From Kineosporia sp. NBRC 101731 (GTDB lineage Bacteria; Actinomycetota; Actinomycetes; Actinomycetales; Kineosporiaceae), in assembly GCF_030269305.1 (NCBI RefSeq), contig NZ_BSTC01000009.1, positions 1 through 64,000 on the forward strand: a stretch of 64,000 bases of DNA. The letters run 5' to 3'. Made by a program: the position numbers and the translations under genes. This document shows, piece after piece, positions 1-61,188 of this stretch; within the stretch, counting starts at the first letter, position 1, and each line of letters opens with the position of its first letter. Below the pieces are notes generated by a model that was not told the origin of the DNA, ran no database searches, and worked only from the letters and a program-made list of their open reading frames with translations.

Positions 1-3000
1 GGTCGGCGGCTGCTTCGGCGGGTGTGGAGACCATTGGTACGGCGGGTGCGGGTGCTGCGGGTCTGGGCGCGCTGGCCTTGATGAACAAGCCCAATGGTTT
101 CAACAAACCGGGCTGGTACACGAAGATGACAGGCGGGGGCTCGGGCACCTCCACCACGAACTCTCCCAATGGTTCTGAAAATTCCTCTGCCGGAGATGGT
201 TCCGGTCCGGAGACGGAAGATCTCAAGGGCGGGTACGGCAGCAACGGCAACGGTGCGGTCGCTCCACCCCCGGGTCTGCCGGGTGTGACGGTACCTCCGG
301 TGGTCAATGGCCTGGGGGGCGGGCCGACGACGGTCAACGTCAACGGCACGATCAACGTCAATGGGTCCGGAACGTCGTCGAACTCGGAGTTCGGTGGACC
401 GAGCCGGACGAACACCGACAGCACCGTGGTGTCCAACGGTTCGCAGGACAGTGTCTTCTCGGAGCCGGGTTCGGGTGTTTCGACGCCGGGCAGCGAGGTC
501 AGCAGTACGGATTACACTGCGCTGCGCCAGACGCTGGAGAACATTGCCCAGAACCAGGTGTTCCTAGGCCAAAATGGTTCTGGTAAAACGAATGACGGAA
601 AGACGAACACTGGTCTTCCCATCCCGGTGGTGGGTCTGAACGGCACGACCGGTCAGAACGGCACGGGCGGTCAGAACGGAACCGGGGGGCGTAGCGGTAC
701 GCCGGACGCGGCCCGGAACCAGGCGGACGATCTCTTCGGGACGATCCCCGACGCCGTTCGTCACACGCTGCCGGCACCGCTGATCCCGGATTCCATCGGA
801 TCGAAAGCGACGGTGAATCAGTCGGTCGATCTGTTCGGGGTCATCCCGGACAACGTTCGCAGCACCCTTCCCCCGGCCCTGATCCCCGACCCGGTCACTT
901 CCGATCAGTCTGTTGCTCAGGCAAATTCGGCCGGTTCCTGGGCGACGGGCAACCAGACCCAGGCCGCGCCGGACCAGACCGCACCGGTTCAGACCGTGAC
1001 GGGCCAGTCGACGTCGGGTCAGACGGTGCCGGGTCAGACGGTGCCGGGCCAGTCGACGTCGGGTCAGACGGTGCCGGGTCAGACCGTGCCGGGTCAGTCG
1101 ACGCCGGGCCAGGTTCCGCTGCTCGGCGCGGCGCTGCCGCTGACGAACGTGTCTTCGGGCCCGGCTCCGGTGTCGATGGTTTCGGGGCCGAATACGGTTC
1201 TTCCAGGTCCGGTTCCGACTCCCGCGGCGACGTTCGCCTCCTTGGTGACGCCGGAGCAGATGCGGGCCGGTCTGGATCGGTACATGGCGGAGGCACGTCA
1301 GCAGCCGGGCGCGGATGCCCAGGATCTGCTGCGCTCGGGTGGTCTTGCCGGGGCGTCGGTCAGCGACTACTCCGCCTGGTACCAACGGCAGACCCAGGGT
1401 GCCGCTCTTCCCGCCTATGGTGGCGCTCCGCTGCCGAATGTCTCGGTGGCCCGCGACCAGTTCGCTCAATTCATCGCCGAGCAGCGTGAGCAGATGGCGA
1501 GAGGGCTGGAGCAGCGTGTCCGCCTGAGCGACAGCTCGGTGAACATTCAGCAGTTGCAGATGCTGATGTATCCGGCGTCGTCGTCCTCGTTCGTGCCGTC
1601 TCCGCCGTCGCCGGCCACGGTCGCGGCGACGCCGCTGTCACCGACGCATTGGGTTCCTGTCGGAGATTCCTGGAGTGGTGTCACCCAGGCGGTTCAGGAC
1701 GGTGGCCACGGCACCACAGTCTTCATCAACACCCAGCCGGCGGGACAGCCGCAGCAGAACCTGGCCGTGGTGAACTGGCAGGGACAAGCGGTGCTGCTGG
1801 ATCTGCCGGCGTCCGAGACGGTGGGGTCCGGGCAGCCGAGCAACGGTTGGATCCAGTCCCTGAGCGCTCTGCCGCAGGCGCCGCCGCCGGGCGCGCAGAT
1901 GATCGTGGTGGGCAATTCCGGGGCGGTGCAGGCCGGTCCGGCTCCGTCCACGGTGACATCGCCCGGCGTGACGGGATCCACCCCCACGCCGATTCCTCAG
2001 GTCGTGCAGCCCCAGCAGGCCGGTCCGGCCCCGGCCGCCCAGCCGAACCAGACGTCCCCGCAGCCGTCCTCGCCACCCGACACCGACGTCCCCCGTTCGT
2101 CGATCGACGGTCTGGACGTTCCCGGAACTGTCACCGGTGAGCAGACATTCGGCGCGACCGACGGCGACGGCCCGACAGCACCGACCGACCGCACCGCGCG
2201 GCCGAACCAGCAGGGCCAGCCGGACCAGCAGAGCGAGCCGAGCCAGCCGAACCAGCAGGGTCAACTGAACCAGCAGAGCCTGCAGAGTCGTCCGGACCAG
2301 CAGAGCCAGCTAGACCAGCAGAACCGGCCGGAACGGCCCGACCAGTCGGCGCCGGACCTCCGACCGGACGGAGCCGACCGGCCGACGCAAGACGATCAGG
2401 CAGACGATCGCGGACAGAACGATCGTGGCGACCAGCCGGCCGATCGTCCGGAACCGATCACCGGCGACCAGTCCGTCCCGACTCCTCGCGCTCCTGAGAC
2501 GGTCTCTCCCGCAGGAACCTTCACCCTGGGCACATTCGGCCCGGCTCTGTCGTCCACCTTGACATCGTCGGGAATGGGCGGGGGGCGACGCCGGCCCGAG
2601 GTCAAGGGCGACAACCGCACCCGCAACTTCGATGCCTGGCTGCGGGAGCAGTCGAACGAGGCCCGGGCATTCCTGAGGAGCCAGACGCCTGAGCGGGCAG
2701 GCCAGTTCCAGACGGTGGCCCAGGAAATCGTCCGTGGTCTGCGCCGTGACGGTGGGGTGCACCGGCTGGACCAGGACGTCGTGCCGGTCGTCACCTCGTT
2801 GTTGATGGCGAACTCGCCGGAGGGCGCGTCGCCGGACCGGATCCCGGAACCGGTTTTCGCCCAGGTGCGGCAGCAGGGCCAGGATCTGGTGAGAGGGCTG
2901 GGACTGCTCCCGATCGGTCTGCCGGGTGGGGCGCCGGGTGTGGGCGGGGTGTGGATCGACGGGGTCCGGCTGTCGGAGAACCATCCGTTCGCCTCGAATG

Positions 3001-6000
3001 ACGCCGTGGCGAGCCTGATGCACGACGGTCTCGCTCATGCGTTCGAGAGTCCGGACGAACTACGGTCTTTCGTTCAGGGACGAACCGACCATCTGGGTAA
3101 TCTCCCGGGTCCCCACAGCACGGGTACGTGGGTGCGGTTCATGGACGATCAGAGCAACGTCATTGGTGAGAACCATGATCGGGTGACGTTGCTGGATGTG
3201 CTGAATGCGGTCGGCGGCCCGGATCCGGGGAAGTGGCCGTCGTTCACCGATGAGCTCATTCCGATGGATGATCTGTCGGGCAGCCCGATGCTGCGGCAGA
3301 TGGTGCATTCCACGTATGCGCCGGTGGCGGCGATGTACGGGTTGATGAACCCGGTGGTGGATTTCCCGAGTCACGGTGGGGAGTCGATTTATCCGCGTCT
3401 GGCTGAAACGGTGTCGGGTTGGTCGCAGTATCTGAATGATCCGACCTTCCAGTCACTGGCGGATGCGGGTTGGGGGCATCGGGGGTCGGAGTCGATCCGG
3501 CTGGCTTTCGCGCATGCCATTGATCTGGCGAACGGGAGTGGTAGCGGGCAGCCGGGATCGCCCTTGGGCCAGCAGGAGGGCGCGGTCGGGAATGCCGTTC
3601 GTCAGGCGCCTCGGGTGCTTCAGTTCGTTCAGGGGATTCAGCCGCGTCAGCCTCTGCACGAGGCGCTGAATGATTTCCGCGCGCGTCTGGGCCCGCAGTT
3701 CGATGCGCAGTTCATGCCGCAGCTGGCGAATTTCACGCGTTCGTATCTGCAGATGATGCAGGTGCGGGCCCTGGGTGATGCGAGCCTGCCGGAGAACGTG
3801 CGGGAGGAACTGGGCGAGCACGACGATCCGCGGGTGTTGTTCCAGCATTGGCGTGATGCGTCGATGGCTGAGGTGACGCGCGCGGCGATGGACCGTGAGG
3901 TGCGGTACATCGGGATGGGCGCCGATCACGCGCGGTTCATCGAGAATGACTACACGGGTGAGCCTCTGGGTGCTTACGTGTACGAGATGGACGGCGAAGG
4001 TCTGGAGACCTTCGAGCAGGAGACCCAGGATCTGCTCAACCAGCCGGTTCCCGGCGCGGTTCCGCCTGCGCTCACGCTCGCGCAGTTCACGCCCGATCTC
4101 AACGGTGTGCTGGATTCCTCGCAGGTGCGGGGGTGGCGGGGGCCGCGTCCGGACCCCGGACAGCGGCCGCTGGACGGATGGTGGACCGATCAGGTCGGCC
4201 AGGCCCGGGCCTTCCTGGATGCGGCGGGGCCCCGGGCCGGGCAGTTCCGGGTGGCTGCGGCGGAGGAAGTACTGAGGGGCGTGCCGGTCGACAGCGCCTC
4301 ACGCCGACGGGTGAACGATGAAGCGGTGCCGGTGATCGCGGCGCTGCTGATGGCCAACTCGCCGGACGGGGTGACGCCGGACCTGGTGCCCGAGGTGGTC
4401 CGTCAGCAGGTACGACAGTCCGTCGCCGGGGCACTGGGCGGGTTGGGTCTGCTCGGGTTCGGCCCGTTGGGTGGCGGCCCCGATCGGGGCGGCGTCTGGG
4501 TCGATGAACAGTGGATGACGCCGAACCATCCCGCGGGTGCGGATCCGCGGTTGTCACGGTTGATGAGCGACGGCCAGGTCCATCTTTTCGAGAACCCGGA
4601 CGAGCTGGGTGCGTACCTGAACGGCCAGACCGACCATCTGGGCAACCTCCCGGGCGAGCACGGCCGGGGTGTCTGGGCGCGGTTCATGGAGGACGAGAGC
4701 AACATCATCGGTGAGCATCACGAAAAGCTCACCTTGATCGATGTTCTGAACACGGTTTCCGGGGGTGACCGGTCGCGGTGGCCCTCATTCACCGACGAGA
4801 TCTTCCCGGTGGACAACCTGTCGGGAAGCCCCTCCCTGCAGCGGATCGTGACGCAGACCTACGCCCCGATCGCGGCGATGTACGGTCTGAACAACCCGGC
4901 CGCCGACATCCCGGCTCACGGTGGGGAGTCGATCTTCCCGCGCCTGGCGGAGTCGCTGTCGGGCTGGGGCCCGCTCCTGAACGACCCGACCTTTGCCGAA
5001 CTCTCGAACGGTGGATGGGCACACCGGGGGTCGGAGTCACTGCGGCTGGCCTTCGCGCACGGGGTGGACCTGGCCAGCGGCCGCGGATCCGATGCTCCGG
5101 GGCCGGTGCTGGCGCAGCTCGAGGCCGCTGTCGGCGCGGCCGTGCGAGACGCGCCACTGGTGCGGGACTTCGTGGCCGCGATGCCGCCCCGGGCGGCGAT
5201 GGGCCAAGGGCTCAACCAGTTCCGCAACCACCTCGGACCCCGGTTCGACAGCGAATTCATGCCTCAGTTAAGGGCGTTCACGAATTCCTACCTGCACCTG
5301 ATGCGGGTGCGGGCGCTGGAAGACGCCACTCTGCCGCAGCATGTGCGCGAGGAGCTGGCCGCGCACGACGATCCGCAGGTGATGTTCCAGCACTGGCGTG
5401 ATGCGTCGATGGCCGAGGTGACGCGCGCGGCGATGGACCGTGGGGTGCGGTACATCGGGATGGGTGCGGATCACGCGCGGTTCATCGAGAATGACTACAC
5501 GGGTGAGCCTCTGGGTGCCTATGTGTACGAGATGGGCGGCGAGGCCCTGCAGACGTTCCAGGGTGACACCTTGCTCCACCAGAGCCAGGTGCCCCCGCCG
5601 GTCTGGGAGAGTCCTTTCCCCGATTCTGGTTTCGCGCTGGGGGAGTTCACACCCGCGTTGGTTGACACGCTGCGTAATGCCGCCTTGGGCTCTCGATCGC
5701 AGCTACGGGATCCGGACGGTCAGAACGACCGCGGCGACCGGTTCGATGCCTGGTGGGACGACCAGGTGCAGCAGGCGCGCGACTTCCTCGCGACCCGGCC
5801 GCAGGACGAAGTGCTTCAGCTGCAGCGTCTGGCCCAGGAACTCGTGGGTAAACTCCCCACGACCAGCCGGGCCCGGGTCACGGCGGAAGTCGTCCCGGTG
5901 ATGACGGCCCTGGTGACGGCGAACCCGCCGTCCCCCGAGATCAGTTCCCAGGTGAGGGGAGCCGCTCTCGAGATCATCCGGGGACTGGGCCTGCGTCCGC

Positions 6001-9000
6001 AGACCTTGCCGGGCGGTAACCCGAAACTCGAGCCGTCCTCCCTTGGCACGCGCCCGGATCCGGGTGCCGGGACCTCCCGCGACCCGGCCGGCGGCGGGAA
6101 CCAGAACGGTGTCACCCGGGACGCCCAGAACCGTCACGTGCCACCGGCACCCCTGGCGCCCAAGGACGTTCCCGGTGCTGGGCAGGACCTCCTCGGCATC
6201 ACCCCGGGCACGGACACCCGGTGGTACAAGGAGCAGCGGGATGCGTTCCAGCGGCTGCGCGAACTCGGCGCGACTACGCAGGGCGGTGCCGAGCGGCTGG
6301 CCCAGCAGGTCGGCGCCCGGCGTCAGGACCTGCTGAACGACGCCGTGCTGGCCGGCTACTTCTACCCCGACGGCTACGGTGTGCATCACCTGGGAGGGAT
6401 CGAGCGGCTGCGCCGTCTGGTCGAGACGACCCCGACGCTGAGGGCGAACGTGCCGCCTCTCCTGGGGCAGCCCGTGTCCCGGGGGCACCTGCAGGCCCTG
6501 GCGAACACCGTCCTGCCCGGTGGTTCGCTCTCCCTGCGGGAGAAGATTCAGAAGCTGGCCGTGGTGGCCGGTTCCCAGGCCGAGACCACGATCGCCACGC
6601 TGCAGCAAGGGCTGGTGGACCAGCCCGCCCGGATCGCGGTGCAGCGATCCTGGGAGGTCAGCCAGCTCCCGCTCAAGGTGATCCAGGCCAACCGGGCGAT
6701 CGAACTGCTCCAGGACACGCCGGATTCCGGTGAGGCGGGTGACCGCCGGAAGCAGCGTGGGCAGGAGCTGACCGACTCGCTGAAGGCCGTCAGCGACCTG
6801 TCCAGCGGGAAGCCCCGGAGTGAACCGGTCCGGCCGGGTGAGCTGGAGGCAGCCCTGCACCGGGTGGAGACCCAGCTCTCCGCGTTGTACGACGACGTCT
6901 TCACCGAGATGCACCCCGGCATCGAACAGCGTCTCAACGATCTCGGCGACCGATTCAACAGCATCTACGGACCGGCCGGCACGGTACACACGAGCGCACC
7001 AGGTCCGCTCAGCGCGGCGGAACTGGCCACCCAGCGTCAAACGCTGCACGAGATCCAGCGTTCGGTGAGCGATCTGGTGGGCCGGGCCGACCGTGTCGGT
7101 ATCGACGCGACCCTGGTCGACCGGTTGAACGACGCCCGGGAAGCGCTCGACAAGCTGTCGGACGACTTCGAGTCCCAGCACGAGCCCGTGGGCAAGGGGA
7201 AGCAGCCGATCGGGCACTCCGTACCCCCGCCCGCCGGCGAGACGACCACGGGGACGCCCCCGAAGCCCGACCGTCGTCTGCCGGCCCGGGTCATCGTGGA
7301 GTCGCGGGCCGGGCGCAAGATACCGTGGGGCGAGTTCGGGCACCCTGTCAGCATCGGTGGCCGCCCGGTGCAGTCCCTCGACGCGGTCGCGCAGCGGGCC
7401 GCGGACCAGTTCGACGGCAAGATCCCGGCCACCCTGAAGGCATCGATCCTGCGGGAGATCCCGAGGCTCGGGCAGATCAACCAGGCGCCGCGGCCGAACC
7501 AGGTGACGGCCGAGCCCACACCCGACGTCTACCAGGACCGGATGCCGGCCTGGGACCCGGCCCGGCGCCTGTTCGCCGACCAGGGGCTCGACCTCGGGGA
7601 CGGGGCCCGGCTGTTCCTCGATCTCGGGCCGCTGCACCAACCGGGCAGCACCACTTACCACCGCCCCGAAGACGTGCAGAAGCTGCCGCTGGGAGCGAAG
7701 CCGACCCAGTCCGTCGACCCGCCGCAGTACCAGGCACCGGGTCTGTTCCAGGACTACTACGGCGCGACCTACGCGAACTTCAACACCAGCTTCGACTTCA
7801 CCCTGCCGCGTGCCGCGAGCATCGGTTTCGGCGGCAAGGTGAACGTGCGTGGCCAGCGGTTGCAGGGGCAGTACGAGGGTGGTGTCTTCACCAGCGAACC
7901 GGGAGCCGCCCACAGCCAGTTCGCCTACTTCAGCACCCGGCCGGCGAGTTCGCCGGCCGCGGCCCCGGTGGGCACCCCCGGACCGTCCACCGCGACCGCC
8001 CCTGGCGCGACCGCTCCCGACGGGAGCCAGTGGCGCATCACGTACACCGATGCCTCGGGTACCTCGCAGACCGTTCAGGTGTCGGAGGACGTGATGCTCG
8101 CCTTCGCCGACAACGAGTCGCCGGAGGTGAAGACCGATACCCCGCAGCCGGATCCGCAGAGCCAGGACGAGATCCAGAATGACACGACGGGCGACGGTCC
8201 GCCCGAGCCGCATCCCGAGCAGGGCGAACTCGGTGAGCTCTTCTCGTTGCCGGCGAACGCGTCGCAGGCGAAGAAGGATGCCTTCCACGACGTCACCTGG
8301 CGGGTCTTCACCGCGGACGAGTCGATCTCGGCCGCCGAGGCCGGGACCGGCCGGAAAACCGATCCGGTCAAGCAGATCCACGACCGCTTCCCCGACGGTG
8401 GCGACGATCTCAAGCGACAGCTCGACGATCTCTTCGACGACAGCTCGCTGTTCCGGCACCGGATGGACATCTTCGGCTCGGGGTACACCACGCCGACGAT
8501 GAAGACGAACGACACCGGGGGCTGGGTCGGGCTGAACCTCAAGGGCCGGGTGTCGTCCATCCAGGCGGTGGGCGTGGCCAAGACCCCGCTCCAGCAGGAC
8601 ACCCGGAGTCTGTTCTGGGGCGGTGAGACCAAGGGGTACACCAGCAGCCTGGGCGGAAGCAGCCGCGTAGGAGGCAAATCGGTCAAGCTCTGGCCGACCA
8701 AGTCGCAGCTCCGGGCCGGTCTGGCCCCCTCGGGCGGTCAGCAGCGCGGGAGGACCCGCGAGGAGAACGTCTCGTTCGGTGCTGGCAACTGGCGCTACCG
8801 CAACTTCGAGTCGGACACCCGCACGTACCGCATGGACGTCGATCTGGTGACCGAGGTGCGCACGGATGCCGGCGGTGCCCGGACGCCCGTCACCACCAAG
8901 GTGACCCGTTACGTCCGGCTCACCGACCAGGAGGTGCAGCGCTTCGAGCAGGAGCTGCGGGACGTGCAGAACAGCACGAACGACAGCACCGTGCGCCCGG

Positions 9001-12000
9001 CCGACCGGCTGCCGCAGGACCAGAACGTGGCCACCGACCGCCAGCCGCCCCCGGCCATCCTGGCCGGAAAGAGCCGTGGGCCGGGCATCGTCGACAACCT
9101 CGGCACCTTCTACCAGGTGGCCGGCGACGCCACCAACATGATCAAGAACGCCGTTCGGGATCCGAAACTATTGGGCTCGCAGGGGCTCTCGCCGAGAGAT
9201 GCGCACGATCTCGAACGCTGGATCATGCAGAACTTCTCCACCCAGACGATGCTCCCGTTCAGTAGTCAGCTGATCAGCCACCAGGTGGGCCACACCACCT
9301 ATCTGAATGCCCCTGGCGGCCGGTTGCGGGTGGACGTGGCGGTCGCGTCCAACCAGGGTTCCACCTGGGTGGGCACGAAGTCGGGCGACGGCTCGATGGA
9401 CCACTACCCGATCGGCTACACCGATCTCGCGAACACCGACCGGCTGCAGGACGACCTCTCCGGCACCTGGTCGGGCAGCCTGGGCGGTAAGCCGAAACCG
9501 ATCGGTGACACCGCCAACCCGAGCCTCGACCTGAGCGAGGCACCGGGCAGCACGGGTGTCACCTGGCGGCAGCGCGAGCAGGTCGAGACGACGGCCAGGA
9601 ACGCCTCCTGGATCTCACAGGGATACCTGCAGAGCGGTCCGTTCCGCGGGTTCACCTTCCCGACCTCGTACCAGGTCGACACCAAGGTCACGTTCGAGCC
9701 GGACACCAGCACCGGGGCGACGGTCGCCGCCGCGGGCACCAAGGGCTGGCGCCCGGCCGCCCAGGCGCTGTCCGACCGGCGCTCGGGCCGGCCCCCGGAG
9801 AACCCGGCCGACAGCAGTCGGCGCGACTGGTACTCGGCATCCGACACCAAGAACATCCCGAGCATCATCCGCTACCAGGTGCCGGAGGGGCTGGCCCCGG
9901 AAGCCGGTCCCGGCGGCCAGGGCACCCCGAACCCCGACCTGGGCCGGGTCGTGGAGATCATCCCGCCGACCGTGGGTGGCCCGGGGATGCCGCCGGTGCT
10001 GCCGCCGTTCGACCCGGCCGCCCTCACCGACGGCGAGGTGCCGGAGGGCTGGCGCCTGCGCCGCAACGACCAGCCGCACGAGGTTCTCGGTGTGCCCGAG
10101 ATCGTCGCCACCACCAAGAAGCTGCTGGTGGACGCCGGGATCCCGGAGGCCGACTTCGGGCCGATGCTCCAGAGCTGGATCAACGAGGACCAGTTCATCC
10201 GGCGGCTGATGTTCAACCGTGACGTGGTCTCGGCCAGCCACTACTTCAGTCCCGGAAAGCTCTCGAACCGTCATGCCCGGGTCACCATGGTCGCCCGGCC
10301 GTACTCCGAGACGACCGAGCCGGGGCACGGCACTTTCCAGCAGAGCTCCATCGTGGAGTCCGAGCCCACCACGCAGTCCCAGGAACGCCACCGCTACAAC
10401 GAGACCGCCGCCGTCGGGGCGGACAACATCGGAACGGCGAAGGGCGGTTTCTCGGCCGGCACCAGTGTGAGTGTCAACGACGTCGAGACCCGCCGTCTGG
10501 AGTCGAACGAGCCGATCGCCGGGCAGTGGCTCTACTCGGCCAAGCGCGACCAGGTCCCGGTGCGTTCCGGAATGGTCTGGGACATCAAGGTGGAGAGCTG
10601 GGACGCGAACCCGTTGGGGCAGAGCGCCGCGAAGCACGGCGGTGCGCGTCTGGCCGTCCTGGGTGGTCTCTCGGTGCTGCGGCCCGAGGCCGACCTGCCT
10701 CAGCCGCAGCCCACCGGAATCCCGATCTCGATGCCGCCCTCGGAGATCCCCCTGCTGTCCGGGACGCTGTTCCACGACCCGTCGATGCCGGGGTCCGGTA
10801 CGTACAACTCGGTCACCGAGAGCGTTCAGAACGTGCTGCGGCAGATCGATCCCGACCTGCCCGACGTCGAGTTCCACATCGGCGACAACCGCCGCGGCGA
10901 GATCGGGAACACCGGTGTCCCGGTCAGTCTGAGTGCAATGCTCGACGACGGGTCGCTGCTCGGCCACCGCGCCACGATGGCGGGCCCGGGCCTGTTCCTG
11001 CACCAGAGCCGCAGCACGGCCGGTGGCGTCGACGACGTGACCCTGGAGATCCGGGCCGAGGAGATCCCGCCCGGTGAGATCGACCAGGCCTGGGTGGACG
11101 CGGGCCTGATCGGCGCGGACGGTAGTTACCTCTACGACTTCACCGAGGACGCCGACCAGTACACCTACAAGCTCAACACCCAGAGGGACACCGACCGCAC
11201 GGTCACGTTCACCGTTCGGTCGACCTCGGCCGGAGGCACCTACCAGGGCTTCCCGGTCCTGAAGGGCACGACCGGCGGAAGTGTTTCGGGTGGACTGAGC
11301 AACAACCCGTACACCGCGGACGTGCGCCACCGGGGCCGGGTGCACCGTCTGCGGGACGTGGTGCGACTGGGCGGGCCGGTGCACCACTACAACGGTATGT
11401 ACCGGATCTCGGTGACGGCCCACCGCAACTACGATCCCTCCAGGCCGATGCAGGTGCTCGGCCCGGTCGGCGAGAAGGGCCTGAACCTGGCTCATTCCAC
11501 GCTGGGGCCGGGATCGAGGTCGGCCACCTCGGTGACCGAGAACGTCTACGTGCCCGAGACCGTGTCCGTGCCCGAGGCCGTGCTCCGCAGCCCGGGCGGC
11601 AAGCCCGGCGCGATCGCTGTCCCGGTGCCCACCACCGATGCCTCCGGCCGACAGCTCGGCGCCTCACAGATTCTGCAGGGCCACGGTCTGGACGAACTGC
11701 ACGTCACCCCGGGCGAGGCGCTGGACCGCTCGGTGATCCACCTGGGTATCAGCAAGCCGGCCCTGCGCTCGATGCACGATCAGACGCTGAACGCGCTGGA
11801 CGCGAGCAGTATCGGTCAGCAGGGCGGGCCGATGGCGAGGACCAGCGCCGCCCGTGAGGCATACTCGCTCACCACCACACCGGCCCAGGTACTCAGCAGC
11901 ACGCACCTGACGCTGGGCGCCGGGCACACCTACCCGCCCTTCAGTCGCGGCAGCGGGGTCCTGACCGACGGACTGACCACGCTCAAGGTGACATCCCGCT

Positions 12001-15000
12001 TCTACGATCCCAAGCCGCTGGACTGGATTCCCGCCTCCTCCCTGGCCGAGACCGTCGGTATGCGCGAGCAGGCCGACGTGAAGATCTTCGGCGACAACCT
12101 GGCCGGCAACCTGGGCGGCACCGTCAGCACCCCGATGGCCGGAAACCCGCTCACCTCGTTCACCTTCGGGGCCGGCGCCGGTGGCGACCACGGCAAGGAC
12201 ACGATCCAGACCGTCAACGAGCGGCTGCCGGTCCCGGACTCCTTCCGCCGTACGGCCCCCTTCATGCGGGTGCCGGTCGGCCGGCTGGACCTGCAGGAGT
12301 TCGGCTCGGTGCAAGAGGGCCGGTTCGTCCGGTACGGCCAGAAGGGCTCGATCCAGGCCTTCCTGATGCCGGATTCGGCCGAGGTGCTCGTAGGCGTCGA
12401 GAAGGTCGTCTCCGATCGTCTGCTGCACCCCGAGCGTGGCATCCCGACGGCGAACAACGGTCACTACCTGCCGAACCTGACCGTGACCCCGCCCGACCTG
12501 CGGACCGTGGCCGGCCAGAACCAGCACCTGGCCGAGCAGGCCCGGCTGAGCGCGGCCTACTCGATGCCCAGCTGGGGCGACTGGCAGCCGGTGATCGGCG
12601 ACTACGCCCCGGATCCGAACGGTGGGCCCGGGCGGGTCCTGCTCACGTCGAACGTGAACGGGACGGTCATCCGGGAGGCCCTGACCGCGGAACAGCTGGC
12701 CGAGCGGCTGGGCCGGACCACGGATCGGTTCACCCCGGGTACCGGCAGTGGTCCGCGCCCGATCCTGCTGATGATGGGTGGCCTCGACCCGGCCTTCGCC
12801 GGGGCCCTGCGCACCGCGACCGGTAGTGACGTCCTGGGCACGCCCGACTCCTGGCGCCAGGACCAGCAGATCCGGGCGGTGCGGCCGGGTGATTCCGGCC
12901 CGGCGTCGGACACGGACGGCGAGATCACGCTGTACCCGAAGGAGGGCGGCGACCCGCTGACCTTCGGCCCCGACCTGGATCTGGTGCTCACCGGCCAGGT
13001 TCCGTGGCACCTGCAGGGTGCCCGGACCGAGGACCCGGTCGGTCTGCGCAATCCCGAACCGGCGATGTACTGGAGCCCGGTGCGGGACGGGGCGACGGTC
13101 GACACCGGCAACTCCCGTCCCGGCGAAGACCCCGGACAGCAGCAGGAACAACGGCGCCCCGGCTTCGATGACCTGTACGACGTCACGGACGACGAGGGCG
13201 ACCAGGGGCAGCGTCAGGACCAGCGTCAGGACCAGCGTCAGGACGGGGACCAGGAGCGCGATCAGAAGGCTGAGCCGGAAGGTGACCGGGAACAGGTACA
13301 GAACCGTGACCAGAAGCCGGACCGGGGACGCGACCGGGACAGGACGGCGCCGGACGAGGCGGAACTCTCGGAGTCGGAAGAGTCCGATCTCTCCGGGACC
13401 GAGGCCCCGCCGATGCGTCGTCGTGCTCCCCGAGACAGTGAAAATCGTTATCAGGAACCGGAATTCGTCATCGGATCGGATCCCTCAGACTCCGAGGCCG
13501 ATCTGTCCGACGACTCCGAGGCGGAGTCCGGCCGGCCGGGCGACACGGTCGGTGCCGACCGAGAGGTGCCGCCGGCGCGTCCTGACCCGACCCGGGGCCA
13601 GGGGACGACGGGTTCGTCCCCGGCCGGTCGCGGATCGTGGGCGACGGACGACGTGGCGGTCGACGACCTCAGCCGGCCGGGCGGGGAACCGGTACGTCAG
13701 GATGCTCTCGCTCCCAGCGAAACCCGTCGCACGGCAACGCCTCCGGCTTCGGAGACGGGTACCCGACCGGACCCGGGGAGTACGACACCCGAGGGCGGGC
13801 CCGAACGGCAGCCGGAACTGAGCCCGCAGGTCGAACCGGAGCGGAAGCCCGAGGCCGACCCCGAACCGACGCCCGAGATCAAGCCCGAGCGGAAGTCCGA
13901 CGTCGAGTCTGAGGTCGAGCCTGAGGTCGAGAACCGGCCTGAGCCGACGCCGGCTCTGGGAACGGGGTCGAGGACCGAGGCCGAACGGCAGCGTGAGGGC
14001 GTCCCCGGGACGACGGACGCGGAGCCGGATTCCGCGTCGGACTCCGAGGGCGAGGTCGCGCCCGGTCCAGAACAGGACGTCGAGCCCGCTCCCACGGCCG
14101 GCTCGCATTCCGTGTCCGGGCAGACCCGGGCCCAAGACGTGCCGCCGGTTCGGCCGTCTCTGTCGGGCACCCAGCTTGATGCCGAGTCGGCACCGGCTCC
14201 GCAGACCCAGCCGGAGACCCTTCCCGACGAAACGCGTTCTGAGGGCGTGACACGTTCCGGGGAGGAGACTCGGCCTGGGGACGACACGCGTTCTGGGCAG
14301 GTGACGCGGCCTGAGGACGGGGCACTGCCGGAGGAGGACAGCCGCGAGGATTCTGACGATGAGGTGGAGAACGGCTCCGACGACGATTCCGAGAACGACG
14401 CGGACGATGAGCTGGATGTCACAGACCGGAACCTCACCAGCAATCTCACGGCGAACCCGCCACCTCGGCGCAGCCCGGCCCTGACCGGGCTGGGCTCACG
14501 GCCGGACAGCCGGGCTTCGGTCGCCACCGACGGCAGTGGCGTCGTGCGTGGCTCGACGCCGCGTCCGGTGGGCCAGGTGTCGTTCACACCGTCGGGTCTG
14601 CCCCGGGCCGGAAGCGTCCCGTCCTTGCGGGGAGCGTCCCGGAGCGACGAGGGCAGTGACGTCAGCCCGTTCGAGCCCTTGCCGTCGTCCCTGGCCGGAA
14701 CCGGGCAGCAGCCGACGGCCCCGTCGCAGCCGACTGTCGCTGCGCCGACGCTCACGCCGTCCACAGCCGGTGAGACATCGCAGGGCACAGCCGATTCCGT
14801 GGTCCGGTCCGACGAGAGTCCCGCACCGGCGGCGCAGCCGGAACCCGATCCTGAGCTCGATCCCGAACGCGACCCCGACAGTGATCCGGACAATGCTCTG
14901 GAACAGGCCCCCATCACCGGGCCGGCGCCGCAGGTCACCACGCCGGTACTCGCACCGGCCGGGACGTCCCAGGTGGAAACGACGCCGGATCCGGGGAGCG

Positions 15001-18000
15001 TGACGGAGCCGGCGGACCGCGGTCCGCAGGACCTTTCGGAGACCAAGGAGAGCGAAGCCGAACCGACCGGTGACGAGGTGCGTCCCTCGTCAACGCCGCC
15101 GCAGTTGCCGGTTGGCGCCCCGGCGCAAGTGGCCGCGGCGGGCGATGAAGCCCGGCGGAACAATTCCGACGACGAGGACGGCGAGTCCGGAAGCAGCGAG
15201 TCTGAGTCTGAGGGGGAGCAGTCGGCTGCTCGTCCTTCGTCGGCACGGCCCGGGCCCGCTGGTGGACCCGAGCGGTCGCCCCGGCCGGAACAGCAGCAGG
15301 AGACCGGGCAGCCGGATTCCGAGGGCGAGCCGGATCCCGAGGACGAGACGGACGGCGAGGGGTCTGACAGCGAGTCGGATTCCGGCGATGGCCCCGGCCG
15401 GACCGAGACTCGCGACCGCCGCGATGACTCCGATGACGAGGCACCCCAGGGCTCCACACCGGCCCGTGACCAGCCGGAGCAGCCGGACCGGGATGACCGG
15501 GACGACCAGGGCGACCAGGGCGACCAAGGCCAGGGCAACGGCCAGGACGAGGGGCAGGGGAGGCGAAGCCAGGATCGGCAGAGCCCGGACTCGCGGAGGG
15601 ACCCGCAGGAGCGGAACCGGGACGAGCGAAACCGGGACGAGCGGGACCGGGACGAGCGGGACCGGGACGAGCGGGAGAGGCGGGACGAACGCGAGCGGCA
15701 CGAGCGGGCGGCCTCCCTACCGAAGCCCACTCCCTACCAGCCGGCCGTCGTCATGGATATGGAGCGGTTCGCCCCCGGGCTGTACGGGGCGCTGGTGAGT
15801 TCCGACCTGGCGAACTACCGCGGCCCCCGGGACCGACGCAACGGTGAAAAGCCCTTCGACGCCTGGTGGAGCCAAAAGCTCTCCGAGGCGCGGGCCTTCG
15901 CCGCGAGCCGGCCGGCCGCCGAGATCGGCCCGTTCCGGCAGTACACCGAGGACATGGCACGCAGGCTCCCCCGGGACGGCGGCGACAACGTGGTCCGCCA
16001 AGAGGTCGTGCCGGTGCTGACGACCATTCTCATGAATCATGCTCCGGCGGGTGCGACTCCCGACGACATCCCCGCGCCCTTGCTCCGGGCCCTGATGGTG
16101 AGTGGCGCCGGCATGCTCAGCGGTCTGGGCCTGCACCAGATCGGTCTGGTGGCGGGTAACCCCAACTTCGGCAGTGCGCCGCAGGCGGGCGGATCGTCCT
16201 CTGCCCCGCCCGACGACGGCCCGGGGCTGGACGGCGACGCCGAGACCCACCAGCTGACGACGTTTCGCGATCACCGCGGCGACGAGACGCTCGAAACCAT
16301 TGAGGAGACAGAGGAACCCGACGAGGAGGCGGTCACCGGGACCGCGCCCGACCCGAACGATCCGGGCGACTCCAGCGACTCCGACTCCAGCGACTCCGAC
16401 TCCAGCGACTCCGACGCCGGTGACTCCGACGCCGGTGACTCCGACGCCGGTGACTCCGACGCCGGTGACTCCGACGCCGGTGACTCCGACGACGGCCGGG
16501 ACACGGACGACACGAACAGTACGGACGATGCGGGTGACAGCGAGGCCGGCGATCCGGTCGTGGTGCCGCGCGGACCGGTGGATCTGCCGCTACCGACGCC
16601 CGACCCGGCGGCGATCACCCGGGCCCGGCAGGAGGCGCGAACCGCCCTGCGGCGGTTCCAGCCCCCGGCCGGGAGCAACTGGAACACCACGCTCGACACG
16701 ATCACCCAGCAGATCAGGGCCGCTGCCCTGACAGCCGGCAACCGGGTGACCGGACCGGTACTGATGGCTGCGGGCCGCGCGTCCGACATCCCCGGGCTGA
16801 CCGCCGGCGAGAAGACCGCGCTGAGCGACTATGCCTCTTCCGTGCTGGATGCTTACCGCGACGGCGCCGAGAAGGCGGCCAAGGACTTCCTGGACCGCTG
16901 GGACGGCGTGGACCGGGCCGAGGGGCAGGAAGTCAACCCGCGGCGGCGTCCGGTGCTGCCGTCCTTCGCGCTGGAGGGCAACCTCGGCAGCGGCAAGATC
17001 ATGGAGACCGGGAATTTCACCCGGCCCGACGATGTGGCGGCCAAGTTCTCCCGCGACCTCGGGCAGGCGCTGACGCCGTCACAGGTGTCCGCGGTGGAGA
17101 CACTTCTGGAGAACGGCCTCTCTCAGAAGGACGCGACCCGGATGATGCAGGGCGGTGTGTCCCTGCCCGGTCCGGTGCGAATCGGGAACCGTTCGTACGA
17201 CGTGCGTCTGGCCCTGGACCTCGTCGGTGGGGTGCCGCTGAAGAAGGCAGACGGGTTCGAGACCACCGAGGACAAGCAGATCGCGTACGACGTGAAGTAC
17301 GCGACGTCGCAGGCCGATCAGAGTTCCGGTCTGACGACGCAGCGGTCGGGGAACTTCGGTTTCACCGATGCTGTTGCTCTGGGGCCCAACCGGGTTCTGC
17401 GGGCGACCGGCGCGCCGCTGAACCTGAAGATGAACGAGCAGGAGAATCTGGAGCCGGTCTACGGTTCTGGTACGGAGTTCTCGCGCAATGTGAAGGGCAT
17501 GATCGGGAACACCGAGTTCCTGGCGGCGGCCCGGCTCAAGGTGGTTCTGCAGGACATCGGTGCGGACACCCCGCCCATGGACAGGACCGTCGGCTCGGGC
17601 CGGATCTGGGCGAAGTTCAACGACGAGGTCGTCCGCATGCCGGCGGAGGACACCCCGATCCAGATGCCGCCCCCGGCCGGGAACGACAGCATCGACGGGG
17701 ACGACGCGAACCGGGACGACGCGAACCGGGACGACCAGGGGCAGCGGCCGGTCCAGGACGGTCAGGATCAGCCGGCACCTGTGCTCGAAGGACCGAAACC
17801 CGAGGTGGCCAAGGTCTATCCGGTGATCTCGGTGCCGGGTGCGGACCAGCCGGTGGTTCCGGGGAGGCCTCGTCCGGGCGAGAGTATCCGTTCACCGTTG
17901 ATCGATGTGTTCCACACCGTCGAGTCGATGCGTGCCGACGAGCTGTCCGCGGCTCTGCGCGGTCGGCTCGGCGAGGTCGACCCGGACACGCAGCAGCAGC

Positions 18001-45000: not shown

Positions 45001-48000
45001 GTCACGAGGCCGGGCACCTGCTCGGCCTGATCGACTTCTACGCGGCCGACCGCACCGCTCCCGAACCGCTGCGTTACCGCTACCGCCGGCTGCACCCGGA
45101 GGAAACCCGGATCTCCGGCGAGCCGAAACACTTCCAGCCCAGCGGAATCGATCCGGAGCCGTCGCTGATGGACAGCTTCGGGTCGAACCCGACCCTGCGG
45201 AACCTGCGGAGCATCAGCCGGTTCGTCGACGAAGGCGACCGCCTGGGGCAGACCGACGGCGAGAAGACCTGGATCGACGCCTACCACCGGGAGCAGTCGC
45301 ACGAGGTGATCGCCGGCACCGTGCGCCGTCAGCTGGAGAGGCTCGGCTGGACCGAGTTCCTGCCGGACCTGAAGCAGGACAGCCGCACCCGGGTCGCGGA
45401 CATGCCGGCGGACCACCCGATCGTCGTCCTGTCCGACCCGGCCCGGGCTCGCGGACCGGAGGGGACCGACCACGCCGAGGAGATACGGCTGGACGCGCCG
45501 GGCGGACGCGTGGAGGACTCGGTCCTGGTGCGGCTGGAGTACTCGGCCCGGCAGGCCGAGACCGGTGGGTTCCCGGTCGCGGTCCTGATCAGCCAACGAG
45601 GGGAACAGGACACCACCGGGTACTGGAACACGGCGGCCTCCACCTCCGTGGCGCTGCCCCCGGCGTCCCGTCCGCTGCTCCCGCTGGAACCACTGCCGTC
45701 CCCGGCTGACGTCCGCGCCCTGCTGCCGGCGAACTGGACCGTCCCGCCGGGGCCGGCCGGGCGAATCGTCACCGCGCCCGGGCCCGACGGCCGGAACCTG
45801 GTGTTCGCCGTCGACCACGACGGCAACCCCGTGGTGCGTGACGGCCTGGACCTCGACACGCAACGAGAACTTGCGACCTGGGCCACCTTCCGGGGAACCG
45901 ACCTTCAGAACGCCCGGCTGCTGGTGTCCGACCTGCCCGAGGGGATGGCCCGCGACCTGGCGCGGCGGACCGGCGCGACCTTCACCTTCAGTGCCGAGAA
46001 CATCCGTGCTGCCGGTGATGCCCAGCTCCAGGTGGGCCCGGTTCCCGGCACCGACACCCTGCGGGGCTGGCTGACGGTCGGACCCACCCCGCCCACCTCG
46101 GCCGACCCGGACGGGACGGCGATCCGGGCGGACGGGGAAGTGCTCTTCCCGCCGGGCATGTGGGAAGTCGGAGTGCCGGACCTGGTCGCGTCCGGCCCGT
46201 TCACCGTGACCGACCAGATGGGCATGCAGCACCAGCTGCACGTGCGCCGGATCGCCGCCGGCATCGTGCTCTCCGACCGCGCGACCATCGACGCCGGCCT
46301 CGACCCGGCCCTGACCGAGCCCGCTCTGCCCGGCCCTTACGCCGCCGACCCGCACCGGCCCAAGGTCGTGCTCGACGTGCACGACGAGCGGGTCCTGGTG
46401 CTGGGCAAGAAGCATCTCGTCGAGAAGTTCCCCTGGCTCCGCCACGGTGCCGACTTCGTCGACGGGCCCTCGGCGTCGTCGATCCCGAGCTACAGCCGGG
46501 CGGGCACCCAGGTGCCGGGAGACGGCCTGGTCTGGCGTCTCTCGTCGAACGACGACTCCCGGTTCAAGCCGGAGATCACCGATGCCATGCGCCAGGGGGC
46601 GACCCCGGTGAGGATCACCACCTCGGCGGTCGTCCGGCGTGACCTGACGAACCCCGGACCCGACCTGCAGACCCTCCTGAACGATCCGGAAAAGCCGGTC
46701 GCGAGGCTGCGCCCGGCCCTGGACCGGATCGAGACGCTGCTGCAGATCCTCGATCGCCGCCTGCCCGAACCGGGCCGGGCCGATCTGGAGAGCGCCCCCC
46801 GTACCTCGAACGTGCGGGCCGACCTACGGCGGGCGCTGGACACCGGCTGGAGCCGGTTCGGGATACCGCGTGAGCACCTGCTGGCCCAGGCACAGCTCGC
46901 GCAGAACCTCGGGCAGGCGCTGCACGTGACGCCGATGGGCCGGTTCGAGGCGAGCGAGTACACGGTCGACGTGCCGCAGGGCCTCAAACCGGTTCCGCGC
47001 CGTGACGTCGAGCAGGTCAAGGTGCTCGAGATCAGTCTGCGCGACCGGATGATCCGGCACGACCGGGTGACCGAGGCCGACCTGGAGCATCTGCGGGAGC
47101 AGGAACTCCGGGAGCAGGCGGAGTTCTGGAACTCCTCCGGCCCGATCGAGGTCGACGGGGAGATCTACTACGTGCGGGCCCGGGTCGAACCGGTCACCGA
47201 CGGCGGCCCGGTCGACCACACCAGTCACGTCTGGTCGCCGGTCACGCAGGACGGCGTGGAGCGGGGCGGGGACGACGCGTTCAACCTCAAGAGCAGCACC
47301 CTCCCCGCCGCCCAGAACCACGAGCGGGGACACAACTTCGGGGCGGACGATCACTACCGGAACTCCCTGACCCCGGGATGGGGCTCGTCCGACCCGCTGC
47401 GCGGCCAGGTGCGCGAGAACGCCGGCGGCCCGGTGCGCGACTCCTCGCGTATCCAGCACGACAAGGCGCTGATGAACCTCGGTGACCACCGGGTGAAGGC
47501 CCGCCCGGCGCCGCAGGACCTGCTGCGCGTGGTGTTGGCCTACAAAGCCCGGGTCGTCGATTTCCGGACCGACGGCGAGAGCACGCCGAGCACCAGGCCC
47601 GATCCGGACGCCCTGGACCGGCTCACCCGGTACGAGGAACTCCACCAGGAGGTGTTCTCGGCCGGTAACGACGGTGACCGGGCCGGTCAATGGGAGGCCC
47701 TGGCCTCCCGCGTCCGTGAGAACCTGCTGCCCGCAGCCGAGCTCGACCGTTCGTCGGCCGGCCCGGGATCGCCGGAACGGCATCGGGCAGACTACGAGAT
47801 CGCGCACCTGAAGCAGGAGATCACCGAGGCCGAGAACCAGGCGCTACGCCTGCGCTCCGATCGCGGCGACGTGAGAATCCCGGTTCCCGGGCACGGCCAC
47901 CTGCTGCGTGAACCGGGCGGATCCTTCCGGCTGGTGCCCACCCCGACACCCCCGGGTTCCCCGGGATCCCCGGGAGGCGGGCAGGCGTCCACTGTCGGCG

Positions 48001-51000
48001 ACCGGCTCACGCCCCCGACGGTGACCCCCGACCTGATGGACCGTCTGACCAACGCGCTGAACCGTCCGGTGACCGTGGCTCTGCCCAACGTCACGGCGAA
48101 GCAGGACGGTGTGCTGCCCGGTGTGCCGATGGCCTCCACGGTGACGTACCGGCCGAACGGTGGACGCCCGGAGCTGGGTGGTGTGCGACCGGACCTGTTC
48201 GTCACGGGTGGGCCCCAGGGGCGGCGGATTCCGTCGGCCACGGAGGAGCCCGGTGTGTTCCGCCTGAACGAGGCCCGGATCGAGGTCATCCCCTCCGGCC
48301 TGCTCATCACCTTCCCGACGGCCGACGGCACCCGGCCCGATCCGGGTCTCGACGTCCGCCGGGCGATTCCGGAACCGGTGGCCCGCACCGTGCAGGTGCC
48401 GCAGATCGGTGACCTCACCAGGCCGCAGCGCGAGACCCTGCACCGGGTGATCGAAGCGCTGAACCCCGCCGTGGCCCGGGTGACCAACATCCAGGGCCCC
48501 GATCATCTGAGCAACGCCGGAGCCTGGCGTGGCCCGGACAGCCGGAAGGTTCCCCTCCGGTCGACCCCCGGCGCCGGAGCCACCACCCCACGGCCGCGTA
48601 TCTGGTCTCCCCAGTACGGTTTCATGAGTCTCGAGGCCCGGGGGACCAGGCCGTTCCCGGTCGGGTTCACGCCGGACGGACGTCCGGTGCGGGCCGGGCA
48701 GAGTGACGGCCAGATTCCTCTGGCGCCGCCCGCGGAGCCTCGTGCCGCCTCCGAGATGCACCTCCTGGCTGGAATACTCGATCTTCCCGGCGCGGCCGAG
48801 CGGGGTGCTCAGCTGGGCGTCGCCGCCCGCGAGCGCACGCTGTCGCCGAAGGAGGGGCATGCCCTCGAGATGGCGAGCGTCCTGGCGGAGCGGGCTTCCG
48901 GTTACGCGCGGAACCAGCTGCTGACCGGCGGCCGGCACAGTGGAGGGGACGAGAGCGCCATCGCGATCGGTAACCATCTGGTGCCGGTGGCGGCCGCCGC
49001 ACTGCTGGCCGGTCCGCAGCCCCATCACGACCCGGACACGTTCGTGCACGACCTGGTCCGTCAGATGGTCACGGTCGTGAATGACCTCGGCTGGCACCGG
49101 GGTGGCCTCAAGGGTGGTCTGATCGGCGGTGAGATCGAGAGCGGCGTGTACCTGCGCACGGCGGAGGGGGAGACCGTCGCCGAGTCGTGGTCCGGCGCGG
49201 ACGTGGGCAAGTTCCCCACTCTGGGGCTGCAACTGACGATGGACCGCCGCACGGTGGCCTGGGGCACGGACGGCCGGCTCTACCCCAACACGGCGGTCGT
49301 GAAGATCGCCACCGGTCATTCCGCCGCACGCACCGAGCGCCGCAACATCATCGAGGTGGTCTACGGCCCGGGGGCCGCGGTCCCGGCGGAGCGACGGACG
49401 ATGCGGGTGGGCGCGGACGGCCGCCGGACGCCGGTGTGGCAGAACGTCTGGGACCAGCACGAGAATGCCAAGTCGATGCTGCGGTGGCTGGAGAAGGCCG
49501 GTGAGAACGGGCTCACGATCGAGGAGGCGTTCCGGCCCGACGAGGCCGGGCACCGCAAGCTGGTTCGACGGTGGGCCCGGTCCGAGGTGCAGGCGGTGCC
49601 GCGCGAACAGCGGGCGATCGAGCGGGTCCGGGACGCGCTGCTGGACCGGATCGGCGAGGTGGGCGACGACTTTCCGCAGATGCGGCTGGGGCACGACCAG
49701 CCGGCCTCCGGCCGCCGGTACTACCCACAGCTCACCCCCGGGGTCCCGGCGGCCGGAGCGCTCGACCTGACCCGTCGCCTGGTCAGTTCCTCGATCAAGG
49801 CCCATGGGCTCGCCGGGTGGACGCAGAACGTCACGCAGGACGCGGCCGAGTTCGCCGCCAGTGCGTCCCCGGAGATGCTGGAGGCCATGGGCGAGGGGCA
49901 GCTGAGCCGCAAGCAGGTGAAGTTCCTGCGCCGCTTCGCCGAGACGAAGGAGTTCGAGGCCGCGCTCGCCACCCTGTACACCCACACGGTTGCCCTGGCC
50001 CGGGGTATCCACGGTGACGAGCTGCAGAAGAACTACATGTTCCTCCTCAGCCGGGCCGAGCGGCTCGGCGACGTCTTCGAGAAGCTGGACGAGACGGTGC
50101 GCGGCTACGCCGAGGTGAATGCCGCGGAACTGGTTCAGGATCTGGCCGACTACGTCGCCGAGAAGCATCCGACGATGGCCGCGGACCTGGGCCACACCGC
50201 GAAGCGCAGCTGGATCGACCAGACGATCGAGGACTCGACCCGTTCGGGCCGGGCCTCCGTCGTCACGCTCCGCCAGTACGCGGAGGCCGCGGTGGGCCAG
50301 GACCGCAAGCGGGCCGTGCCCCAGGTGGGGGCGTTCGGCGACATGACCACGGTGGACATCGAAGCGAGCTGGCCAGGCGGCCCGGATCTGCTGGTGTACG
50401 AGCTGAGGCACTTCCCGACCACGATGCGGGGTCGTAACGGCCGCACCTACGAGGTCGCGCAGCGTCCGCTCGACGAGACCGACAAGGGCCTGGACGTGAT
50501 GCTCAAGGCCGTGCAGTCGGCGTTCGACTCGGCCGAGCACGCGCGGGATCTCTCCGAGCGCAACGGTGGTCTGGTCGCGTCGGCGATGCGTTCGATCGAC
50601 CCACCCTGGGTGGTCGAACTACGCGACCTGGCGGCCGAGATCGGGGTGCCCGACGCGGCCGGGAAGGCCCGGCAGATCTACGAGGGGGCCCGGGACCACC
50701 GGTTGCGGCGGCACGACCGCCAGGCCCTGGAGCGCGCGAGCATCCTGGCCGAACGGGCCTCCGGGTATTCGAGGGCACACCTGGTGACCGGAACCAGCCA
50801 GCCCTCCGTCGACCCGAACATCGGTGCGGTGCGCGACTACATCGTGCCGATCGCGGCCGCCGCGATGCGGACCGACCCCCGGGCCCGGCGAGACCCGCGC
50901 GCCTTCACGTACGACCTGACCAGCTGGATGCGGTCGGTCGTCGAGGACCGGGGCTGGCACCGCGGCGGTCTGCCCGGCGGTCTGGTCGGCGGTGAGAGCG

Positions 51001-52997: not shown

Positions 52998-53114
52998 GAA
53001 TCCGACCGGCCGTCCTGAACCTCACCTGAACCCTTCCGGCTGTCCGTCCGTGCATGGGTGTAGGTACTGGTGTGCGTGATGCCACCGGTAACAGGTGCGT
53101 GACCGGAGGTGGCA
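52998..53114 (+). promoter_or_regulatory. Intergenic region after the giant gene (117 nt)
   Basis: No strong hairpin followed by a T-run is seen after the giant gene, so read-through into the next gene is plausible. A taggta hexamer at 53061-53066 has no good -35 partner at normal spacing. I cannot support a specific promoter or terminator. Confidence 0.3.
53105..53110 (+). promoter_or_regulatory. Shine-Dalgarno GGAGGT that decides the start of the next gene
   Basis: GGAGGT overlaps the upstream GTG at 53109 and lies 4 nt before the GTG at 53115, so 53115 is the better start than 53109 or the ATG at 53130. Confidence 0.6.
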
Positions 53115-60700: not shown

Positions 60701-61188
60701 GCGGGGTGCTCTTCATCGACGAGGCGTACACGCTGTCGCCGCCCGGGGGCGGCAACGACTTCGGCCGCGAGGCGATCGACACCCTGGTCAAGCTGATGGA
60801 GGACCACCGCGACGAGATCGTGGTGATCGTGGCCGGTTACACCGGTGACATGAAGCAGTTCCTCGACGCGAACGTCGGTCTGGCGTCGCGGTTCAGCCAT
60901 CAGATCAACTTCGCCTCGTACAGCCCGGACGAGCTCGTCGCGATCTTCCAGACGATGTCCGCGGCCGGCGGTTACGAGGCCTCCGGGCAGACGCTGCACG
61001 TGCTGCGCCAGCACTTCTCCACGGTCGACCGGGGCGACACGTTCGGTAACGGCCGGTACGCCCGCCAGGTGATGGACAAGGCGATCACCCGTCAGGCCAG
61101 CCGGCTGCGTACCATCCCGAACCCCTCCTTGCAGGACATGCAGCTGCTGACCCAGGCCGATGTCGTGGCGGCGCTGGGAAGGCGTTGA
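57772..61188 (+). CDS. Right-handed beta-helix fused to two CbbX/EccA-type AAA+ ATPase domains
   Basis: 1,138 aa. ATG overlaps the previous stop (ATGA). Residues ~1-515 are repeats of about 22-24 residues (vleDcti..ngg.GVvv...a.p.l.gctv), typical of parallel beta-helix (PbH1) proteins that bind extended ligands. A Pro-rich linker ([20 protein letters not shown]) follows. AAA+ domain 1 has Walker A GPPGTGKT (639-646) and Walker [10 protein letters not shown] (Asp702, Glu703); domain 2 has GPPGTGKT (920-927) and LFIDEAYTL (Asp983, Glu984). Both keep sensor-like VIVAGY and the CbbX pattern [11 protein letters not shown] / [11 protein letters not shown]. This class includes Rubisco activase CbbX and the type VII secretion ATPase EccA. 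EccA carries an N-terminal TPR-like domain; here a beta-helix takes that place. No Rubisco gene is near, so a role in remodelling or export of the giant protein fits better (inference). No signal peptide; cytosolic. Confidence 0.93.
61176..61182 (+). promoter_or_regulatory. Shine-Dalgarno GGGAAGG for the secreted protease-like gene
   Basis: Lies 10 nt before ATG 61193, inside the end of the AAA+ gene. It supports ATG 61193, which begins a clean signal peptide, over the GTG at 61160. Confidence 0.65.

Follow-up and report, generated by a model that had tools for sequence, protein, structure and literature searches.

Gigantic actinobacterial proteins of more than 10,000 amino acids (aa) with several toxin domains have been described, the longest given in the accessible part of that report being 13,652 aa (PMC3482391). 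ESX (type VIIa secretion) gene clusters have been surveyed, with Kineosporiales included according to the available portion of the survey (PMC4791881). The excerpted text of a third paper lists a beta-helix and tetratricopeptide repeats (TPRs) among the N-termini of EccA-like AAA+ proteins (PMC10659427). Here we analyze a stretch of 64,000 nucleotides (nt), called the window, which is the beginning of contig NZ_BSTC01000009.1 (C9) in the 8.26 Mb genome of the soil actinomycete Kineosporia sp. NBRC 101731. It contains a giant gene followed by four partner genes, P1 to P4. We think it probable that the giant is exported by ESX as a chain of several effectors, with dedicated chaperones, and that it serves as a weapon against competitors, prey or hosts. 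The reading frame, the gene order, the ESX linkage in relatives, the absence of cysteine, the exchange of cargo and the domain similarities are established by computation.

The giant gene

The giant frame is uninterrupted for 17,664 codons, as the initial annotation had claimed in giving more than 17,650, and is still open at base 1 of the window. The other two forward frames across positions 3-52997 contain 408 and 240 stops, and a frame open by chance is thereby ruled out. GC content by codon position is 0.71/0.51/0.875. Compared with a relative over 2,398 codons, the frame differs by 0.31/0.27/0.41 at the three positions, with the third highest. Given this composition and the excess of third-position differences, the frame behaves as coding sequence.

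Residues 5-45 of the window giant align with residues 280-320 of the giant of K. babensis (genome G005), and its start aligns with about residue 279 of the giant in a second Kineosporia genome (G004). About 275-278 N-terminal residues therefore lie off the contig, and we estimate the full length at about 17,940 aa. The K. babensis frame (C12:448002-519968) spans 72 kb and encodes 23,988 aa, with no cysteine. An assembly artefact is extremely improbable: the contig break where the window starts does fall in a repeat, but giant frames occur in all five other Kineosporia genomes compared, one of which is a single 8.07 Mb contig.

ESX genes near a giant start

The first ~44 codons of such a giant are found at the end of contig C25 and at the start of contig C17. 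Exactly 127 nt are common to the C25 end and the C17 start, and likewise to the C25 start and the C9 start, so the giant head is a repeat at which the assembly failed. The heads of two giant genes in this genome are nearly identical, as seen at the ends of C9, C17 and C25.

C25 encodes EccC (reverse strand), EccD, EccB and two WXG100 proteins, then further proteins and the giant start codon, which lies ~12 kb from these ESX genes. EccC (C25:43658-47752) scores 978 bits against a TIGR03924 cut-off of 509, EccD 235 against 94.95 bits and EccB 267 against 154 bits. The small WXG100 proteins (C25:50624 and 51030) match TIGR03930 at 6.4e-10 and 1.3e-5, both below the curated cut-off. Just before the giant start are proteins of 134, 1,139 and 1,034 aa without cysteine and a 116-aa protein. 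Two cysteine-free proteins of ~1,000 aa lie upstream of the giant both here (C25:51913-58516) and in G004 (4034135-4040420); they contain, by eye, repeated "LGDLSxxQLxxLxxAGLLDD"-like motifs and are possible co-substrates.

The order EccC (reverse), EccD (forward), giant, P1, P2, P3 is kept in three Kineosporia genomes (G002, G004 and G005), one of them a single contig. An additional gene stands between the giant and P1 in two of them, P3-like in G002 and another P1 in G005. Because the order is the same at these three loci, C25 is likely paired with C9, and on this synteny we place it as the likely continuation of the window. The ESX core genes that the initial annotation had anticipated upstream are thus present near a giant start on C25, with the connection to the window made by synteny.

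Giants and ESX genes in other genomes

EccC exceeds the TIGR03924 cut-off at 15 sites, which are spread over all six Kineosporia genomes. A giant lies near 10 of these 15 if one includes the G004 giant, whose head matches at E 0.037, and the giant start on C25; none was matched near the other five. All nine Kineosporia frames of at least 5,000 aa with a WXG100_2 head have EccC within 30 kb. The PF25547 head is matched in relatives; the window's own head falls in the assembly gap.

In a class-wide sample WXG100_2 was matched in 59 of 197 genomes, our genome included. Outside the genus, 12 frames with WXG100_2 are 4,200 aa or longer, and we examined 10 of them (G198:C56 and G213:C8 were left out). 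EccC is near seven of these giants, EccD near six, a P3-like gene near six and P1 near one; that locus (G187) has two P1 copies and the gene order of the window.

Our searches also started from P1. Among 98 relatives it is found in all six Kineosporia and weakly in one other, and the seven genomes from the family's other genera gave no match. When genome contigs were scanned, 212 relatives emerged, and 75 loci were retained, in Kineosporia, Frankia, Micromonospora, Saccharopolyspora, Actinoplanes, Catenulispora, Streptomyces and other genera; alignment A3 omits one relative present in A2 (L013), which had been taken from the wrong strand. Where more than 8 kb lies upstream, 43 of 71 P1 loci are preceded on the same strand by a frame of 2,000 aa or more whose end is no further than 6 kb from P1 (37 of the 43 with coding-like composition), and control counts are 1/71 downstream and 6/71 antisense. 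P1 is often the gene directly downstream of a giant. At the 57 loci that continue for more than 9 kb past P1, P2C follows in 18 and P3 in 21. The full cassette is not universal, or is too diverged for the search used. A P1 relative with one in-frame TGA (L011, G002:C1:637844-638995) lies near a giant of 5,032 aa and was kept out of the alignments.

The genome contains a second ESX locus (C9:216045-266963) encoding a WXG protein, EccC, EccD, P2-like, P3-like and ParA-like proteins, then a giant of 9,735 aa with two cysteines. A second class of giants with a different N-terminus is found at C3:138559-171387 and C5:33535-62820, and at G004:7658255-7686118. These adjoin EccC-like ATPases that score below cut-off. 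The giants at C3 and in G004 have cysteine at the extreme C-terminus, and a shorter, probably single-AAA, beta-helix gene is nearby.

Cysteine depletion

The window giant has no cysteine, against about 100 expected. Among ten Kineosporia giants of this class, cysteine is absent from eight and occurs twice in each of the remaining two, which makes 4 in 124,402 aa (three of the ten are incomplete at the 5' end). As background, 71 mechanically chosen frames of one relative contain 243 cysteines in 42,877 aa, and 11 of the 71 have none. Tryptophan, tyrosine and methionine are not comparably depleted. Avoidance of stop codons as the cause was ruled out, since tryptophan and tyrosine, whose codons are likewise a single substitution away from a stop, occur at near-background levels. 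The 43 frames that precede P1, mostly outside Kineosporia, have 102 cysteines in 130,007 aa, and control frames downstream at P1 loci have 566 in 64,660 aa. Among the neighboring genes the values per 1000 residues are 9.7 for P3, 25 for P4, 5.0 for P1, 1.7 for P2 and 1.5-2.9 for EccC. The standout feature is the near-absence over thousands of residues, which suggests that the chain meets an oxidizing space or must cross a channel unfolded.

A cytosolic assembly or a silent relic, with the ESX neighborhood incidental, would fit a secretion motif that is not conserved and the three of ten outside loci without a secretion gene in view. Near-total absence of cysteine, intact frames of up to 23,988 aa in several species, the third-position bias of changes and the linkage to EccC in all nine genus cases stand against it, and we regard it as very unlikely.

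Partner genes

The initial annotation saw three translationally coupled partners within 117 nt of the giant, one a twin AAA+ protein of the CbbX/EccA class, and both observations hold (Table 1). P1 has a listed GTG start at 53109 and an alternative GTG at 53115, which has GGAGG immediately 5' and lies 117 nt after the giant. The P1 stop and P2 start overlap as TGATG (54312-54316), and P2 and P3 overlap as ATGA (57772-57775). The structure model of P1 (predicted local distance difference test score 79.8) gives no clear known fold. P1 was considered as a cognate immunity protein and ruled out: it is too conserved for variable cargo, being 71-81% identical where the cargo differs.

The C-terminal domain of P2 has, by profile similarity, an ADP-ribosyltransferase (ART) fold. 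Its profile (alignment A1) matches XopAI at 1.9e-14, a PAAR effector (6dre) at 1.3e-9 and Vis at 7.3e-8 among Protein Data Bank (PDB) sequences. At the column that we take to be the catalytic glutamate of the ExE motif, glutamate is seen by eye in one of the 12 aligned sequences, and this one is not the P2 of the window. With the presumed catalytic residue kept in just one, the domain is probably not an active transferase.

P3 scores 505.5 bits against the EccA model TIGR03922 (NCBIfam cut-off 466.65; summed over its two AAA+ domains) and higher, 542.9 bits, against the SpoVK model (cut-off 422.95). The TPR domain of the mycobacterial EccA N-terminus is not found in P3, where Pfam gives a beta-helix instead.

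A fourth partner, P4, adds to the initial annotation. It combines an N-terminal hydrophobic, signal-like segment with HExxHxxGxxxxxxH and has no Pfam or NCBIfam match. Its start is more likely ATG 61193 than ATG 61160, a choice that decides whether P4 follows or overlaps P3. Copies that are 67% identical follow P3 in G004 and K. babensis.

The placement of P4 after P3 at these three loci invites the reading that the giant is a precursor of several released toxins, with P4 and the internal metzincins cutting the exported chain and P4 standing in for mycosin. Weaker mycosin-like subtilases, below cut-off, lie beside EccC at four other loci where P4 was not matched, and the four window-type loci, P4 being present at three of them, gave no subtilase match next to EccC. 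Yet the corresponding locus in G002 and the ESX locus at C9:223872 have neither a P4 nor a mycosin neighbor, the 57 P1 loci that run more than 9 kb past P1 gave a single P4 match (in K. babensis), all these numbers are low and no cleavage sites are known. We consider such a precursor rather unlikely.

Downstream of P4, and convergent with it, is a frame on the reverse strand (62239-63351) beginning GIDVGTTFVSAAV that is Hsp70-like by eye, and after it a response-regulator-like gene (63478).

Modules of the giant chain

The four metzincin-like domains and the C-terminal tandem of the initial annotation were both recovered: four HExxHxxG sites are present, and the tandem includes a partial third copy besides the two units in Table 1. 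Metzincin modules are the most widespread of the modules tested, with 25 matches in 11 of the 26 frames compared. The predicted fold of tandem unit 2 is nearest to the actin cross-linking domain (ACD) of Vibrio MARTX/VgrG.

Absent from the initial annotation is a block of ~2,000 aa that is duplicated in the giant. Its copies are 74-87% identical over three aligned pieces, and the block is present in two further giants of the same genome. The A6 module has 16 profile matches spread over six giants. It is probably the domain that the initial annotation had called "EAC-like", a label that finds no backing: there is no PDB sequence match at E <1, and Pfam gives scattered single-member matches of 0.019 or worse.

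Table 1. Features of the window, with positions in nt from its first base.
Feature	Position	Strand	Evidence and remarks
Giant gene	3..52997	+	17,664 codons in window; 0 cysteine, 1.90 MDa, isoelectric point 4.9 for part seen
140-aa module, three copies	2502..6032	+	aa 834-981, 1353-1496, 1871-2010; profile matches
A6 module copy 1	3093..4067	+	aa 1031-1355; profile match
A6 module copy 2	4638..5603	+	aa 1546-1867; profile match
140-aa module, fourth copy	15735-16172	+	aa 5245-5390; profile match
Duplicated block copy 1	16599..22832	+	aa 5533-7610; self-comparison
Duplicated block copy 2	24456..30551	+	aa 8152-10183; self-comparison
Metzincin-like module 1	34923..36242	+	HERGHFLGLPD; motif, profile; TIGR03296 M6 domain 5.7e-6, below cut-off
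Metzincin-like module 2	40698..41939	+	HERGHHWGLPD; motif, profile
Metzincin-like module 3, divergent	44679..45344	+	HEAGHLLGLID; motif, profile; TIGR03296 0.0089
Metzincin-like module 4	46992..48284	+	HERGHNFGADD; motif, profile
C-terminal tandem unit 1	48813..50594	+	profile match aa 16271-16864; alignment A4; 55% identical to unit 2
C-terminal tandem unit 2	51168..52994	+	predicted glutamine-synthetase-type (amidoligase) fold from structure model
P1	53115..54314 (listed start 53109)	+	~400 aa (401 as listed); no known family
P2	54314..57775	+	1,153 aa; low-complexity middle; ART-fold C-terminal domain 56984-57673
P3	57772..61188	+	1,138 aa; right-handed beta-helix and two EccA/SpoVK/CbbX-type AAA+ domains (Pfam)
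P4	61193..62242 (listed start 61160)	+	signal-like segment; HELLHTLGAVNSSAPH metzincin-like motif

The G004 locus (C1:4041333-4081517; L023-L025) carries 13 tandem GT4-type glycosyltransferase units with a period of ~710 aa. All are inside one frame of 13,394 aa without cysteine in a single-contig genome, and mean pairwise identity is 72% over the 14 unit-length pieces aligned. The 140-aa module has 14 copies in this giant by profile, located ahead of the GT4 units. A constant trafficking part and constant flanks combined with exchangeable effector domains, as in these giants, are one feature of polymorphic toxins.

A surface stalk or exoenzyme scaffold, also exported by ESX and acting on nutrients or on the envelope of the producing cell (adhesion, envelope remodeling or polymer digestion), would account for the wide spread of the metzincin modules, for GT4 units adjoining Asp/Ser-rich linkers that they could modify and for the lack of a recognized cognate immunity gene. 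However, at a single locus with conserved flanks the cargo differs from species to species, and the GT4-conflict, glutamine-deamidase and ACD-like folds belong to families that are associated, some by name, with biological conflict. We judge a non-weapon role of this kind unlikely.

Proposed mechanism

We return to the giant as an exported weapon. The giant would be the substrate of a dedicated type VIIa (ESX) locus. Its WXG100-like N-terminal head, with two hydrophobic segments, may recruit it to EccC. P3, with P1 and the ART-fold P2, would hold the chain export-competent and feed it to the EccB/C/D complex. The chain appears to bear exchangeable enzyme modules between low-complexity linkers, here four metzincin-type proteases and the ACD-like pair. 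It would be displayed on the cell or freed from it and may act on competitors or prey, or on hosts, for example fungi or amoebae. We infer the link of this copy to the ESX genes on C25, the export route, the roles of P1 to P4, display versus release, toxicity and target; a weapon is proposed because of the kinds of cargo and their turnover.

Several results weigh against this mechanism. No cognate immunity gene was identified, P1 being the gene assessed, and the metzincin and ACD-like assignments depend on motifs and one model. The join of C25 with the window crosses a repeat that was left unassembled, and the true pairing could be a different one, C17 having a giant start as well. Mycosin (TIGR03921) is over cut-off in none of the six Kineosporia genomes, and the G004 head matches WXG100_2 at just 0.037. 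ESX substrates are expected to have a YxxxD/E secretion motif after the helical hairpin; the motif is not conserved among 17 giant heads, and a dimer partner of the head may carry it. The ten giants outside the genus have 0 to 1.87 cysteines per 1000 residues, a weaker depletion in some, and since P2 and EccC are also cysteine-poor, low cysteine alone is no proof of export.

Giants lacking partners or a secretion locus, which the initial annotation took as counter-evidence, are a minority of the loci examined. Three of the ten outside loci (G126, G198 and G213b) show no partners or EccC in view, and these include the two longest outside frames (20,950 and 19,629 aa). Two of the three views are curtailed, as the G126 contig ends inside the giant and the G213b contig begins 1.9 kb before it. 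No module of the window giant was matched by blastp in the ten outside giants, so these resemble the window in head and in gene setting but not in cargo.

More tentatively, at somewhat less than an even chance, a distinct ESX subtype across several actinomycete families may be specialized to export megadalton cysteine-free chains of several effectors. P3 would be the feeder, P2 a pseudo-ART adaptor, P1 an adaptor and P4 a secreted metzincin replacing mycosin; single polypeptides of up to ~24,000 residues would be threaded through a type VII channel, and whole cargo arrays (13 glycosyltransferases, or proteases with ACD-like units) would be swapped between species.

If exported by ESX, the giant would greatly exceed in size the type VII substrates known to us, and would be an extreme case for the question of whether substrates pass folded or threaded. 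The cassette supplies candidate export factors in P1 to P4. Near-zero cysteine over thousands of residues is suggested as a signature for finding more such chains, and the loosely known giant actinobacterial toxins gain a locus with exchangeable cargo.

Comparison with known systems

The initial annotation proposed an undescribed system. Giant multi-toxin actinobacterial proteins have been known since 2012, those of more than 10,000 aa being in the accessible part of PMC3482391, and the Kineosporia kind is not wholly undescribed. What does stand is the combination: an ESX core, P1, cargo exchange and absence of cysteine were not met together in the open-licence literature searched.

Like SACTE_5178 and its kin (Zhang et al. 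2012, PMC3482391), as far as the available text describes them, the Kineosporia giants are actinobacterial single chains of more than 10,000 aa with toxin-type domains that include metallopeptidases. They are longer, at about 17,940 aa here (estimated) and 23,988 aa in K. babensis against 13,652 aa. The ESX core, the P1-P4 setting and the lack of cysteine are features of the Kineosporia giant that this text does not mention, and the two kinds are likened by description.

ESX (type VIIa) loci have EccB, EccC, EccD, WXG100 proteins and an EccA-type AAA+ protein in common with the Kineosporia locus. The latter differs in having no mycosin over cut-off, an EccA-like P3 made of a beta-helix and two AAA+ domains, and a putative substrate of megadalton size. 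Compared with the actin cross-linking domain of Vibrio MARTX/VgrG1 (4dtf, 4dtd, 4e1f), the modeled tandem unit 2 is 11-12% identical.

The CpnT-type toxins of mycobacteria, with CpnT presumably a member of PF25547, likewise have a WXG100-like N-terminal head on an enzyme-bearing chain. The Kineosporia giant is about twenty times longer and has many enzyme modules instead of one.

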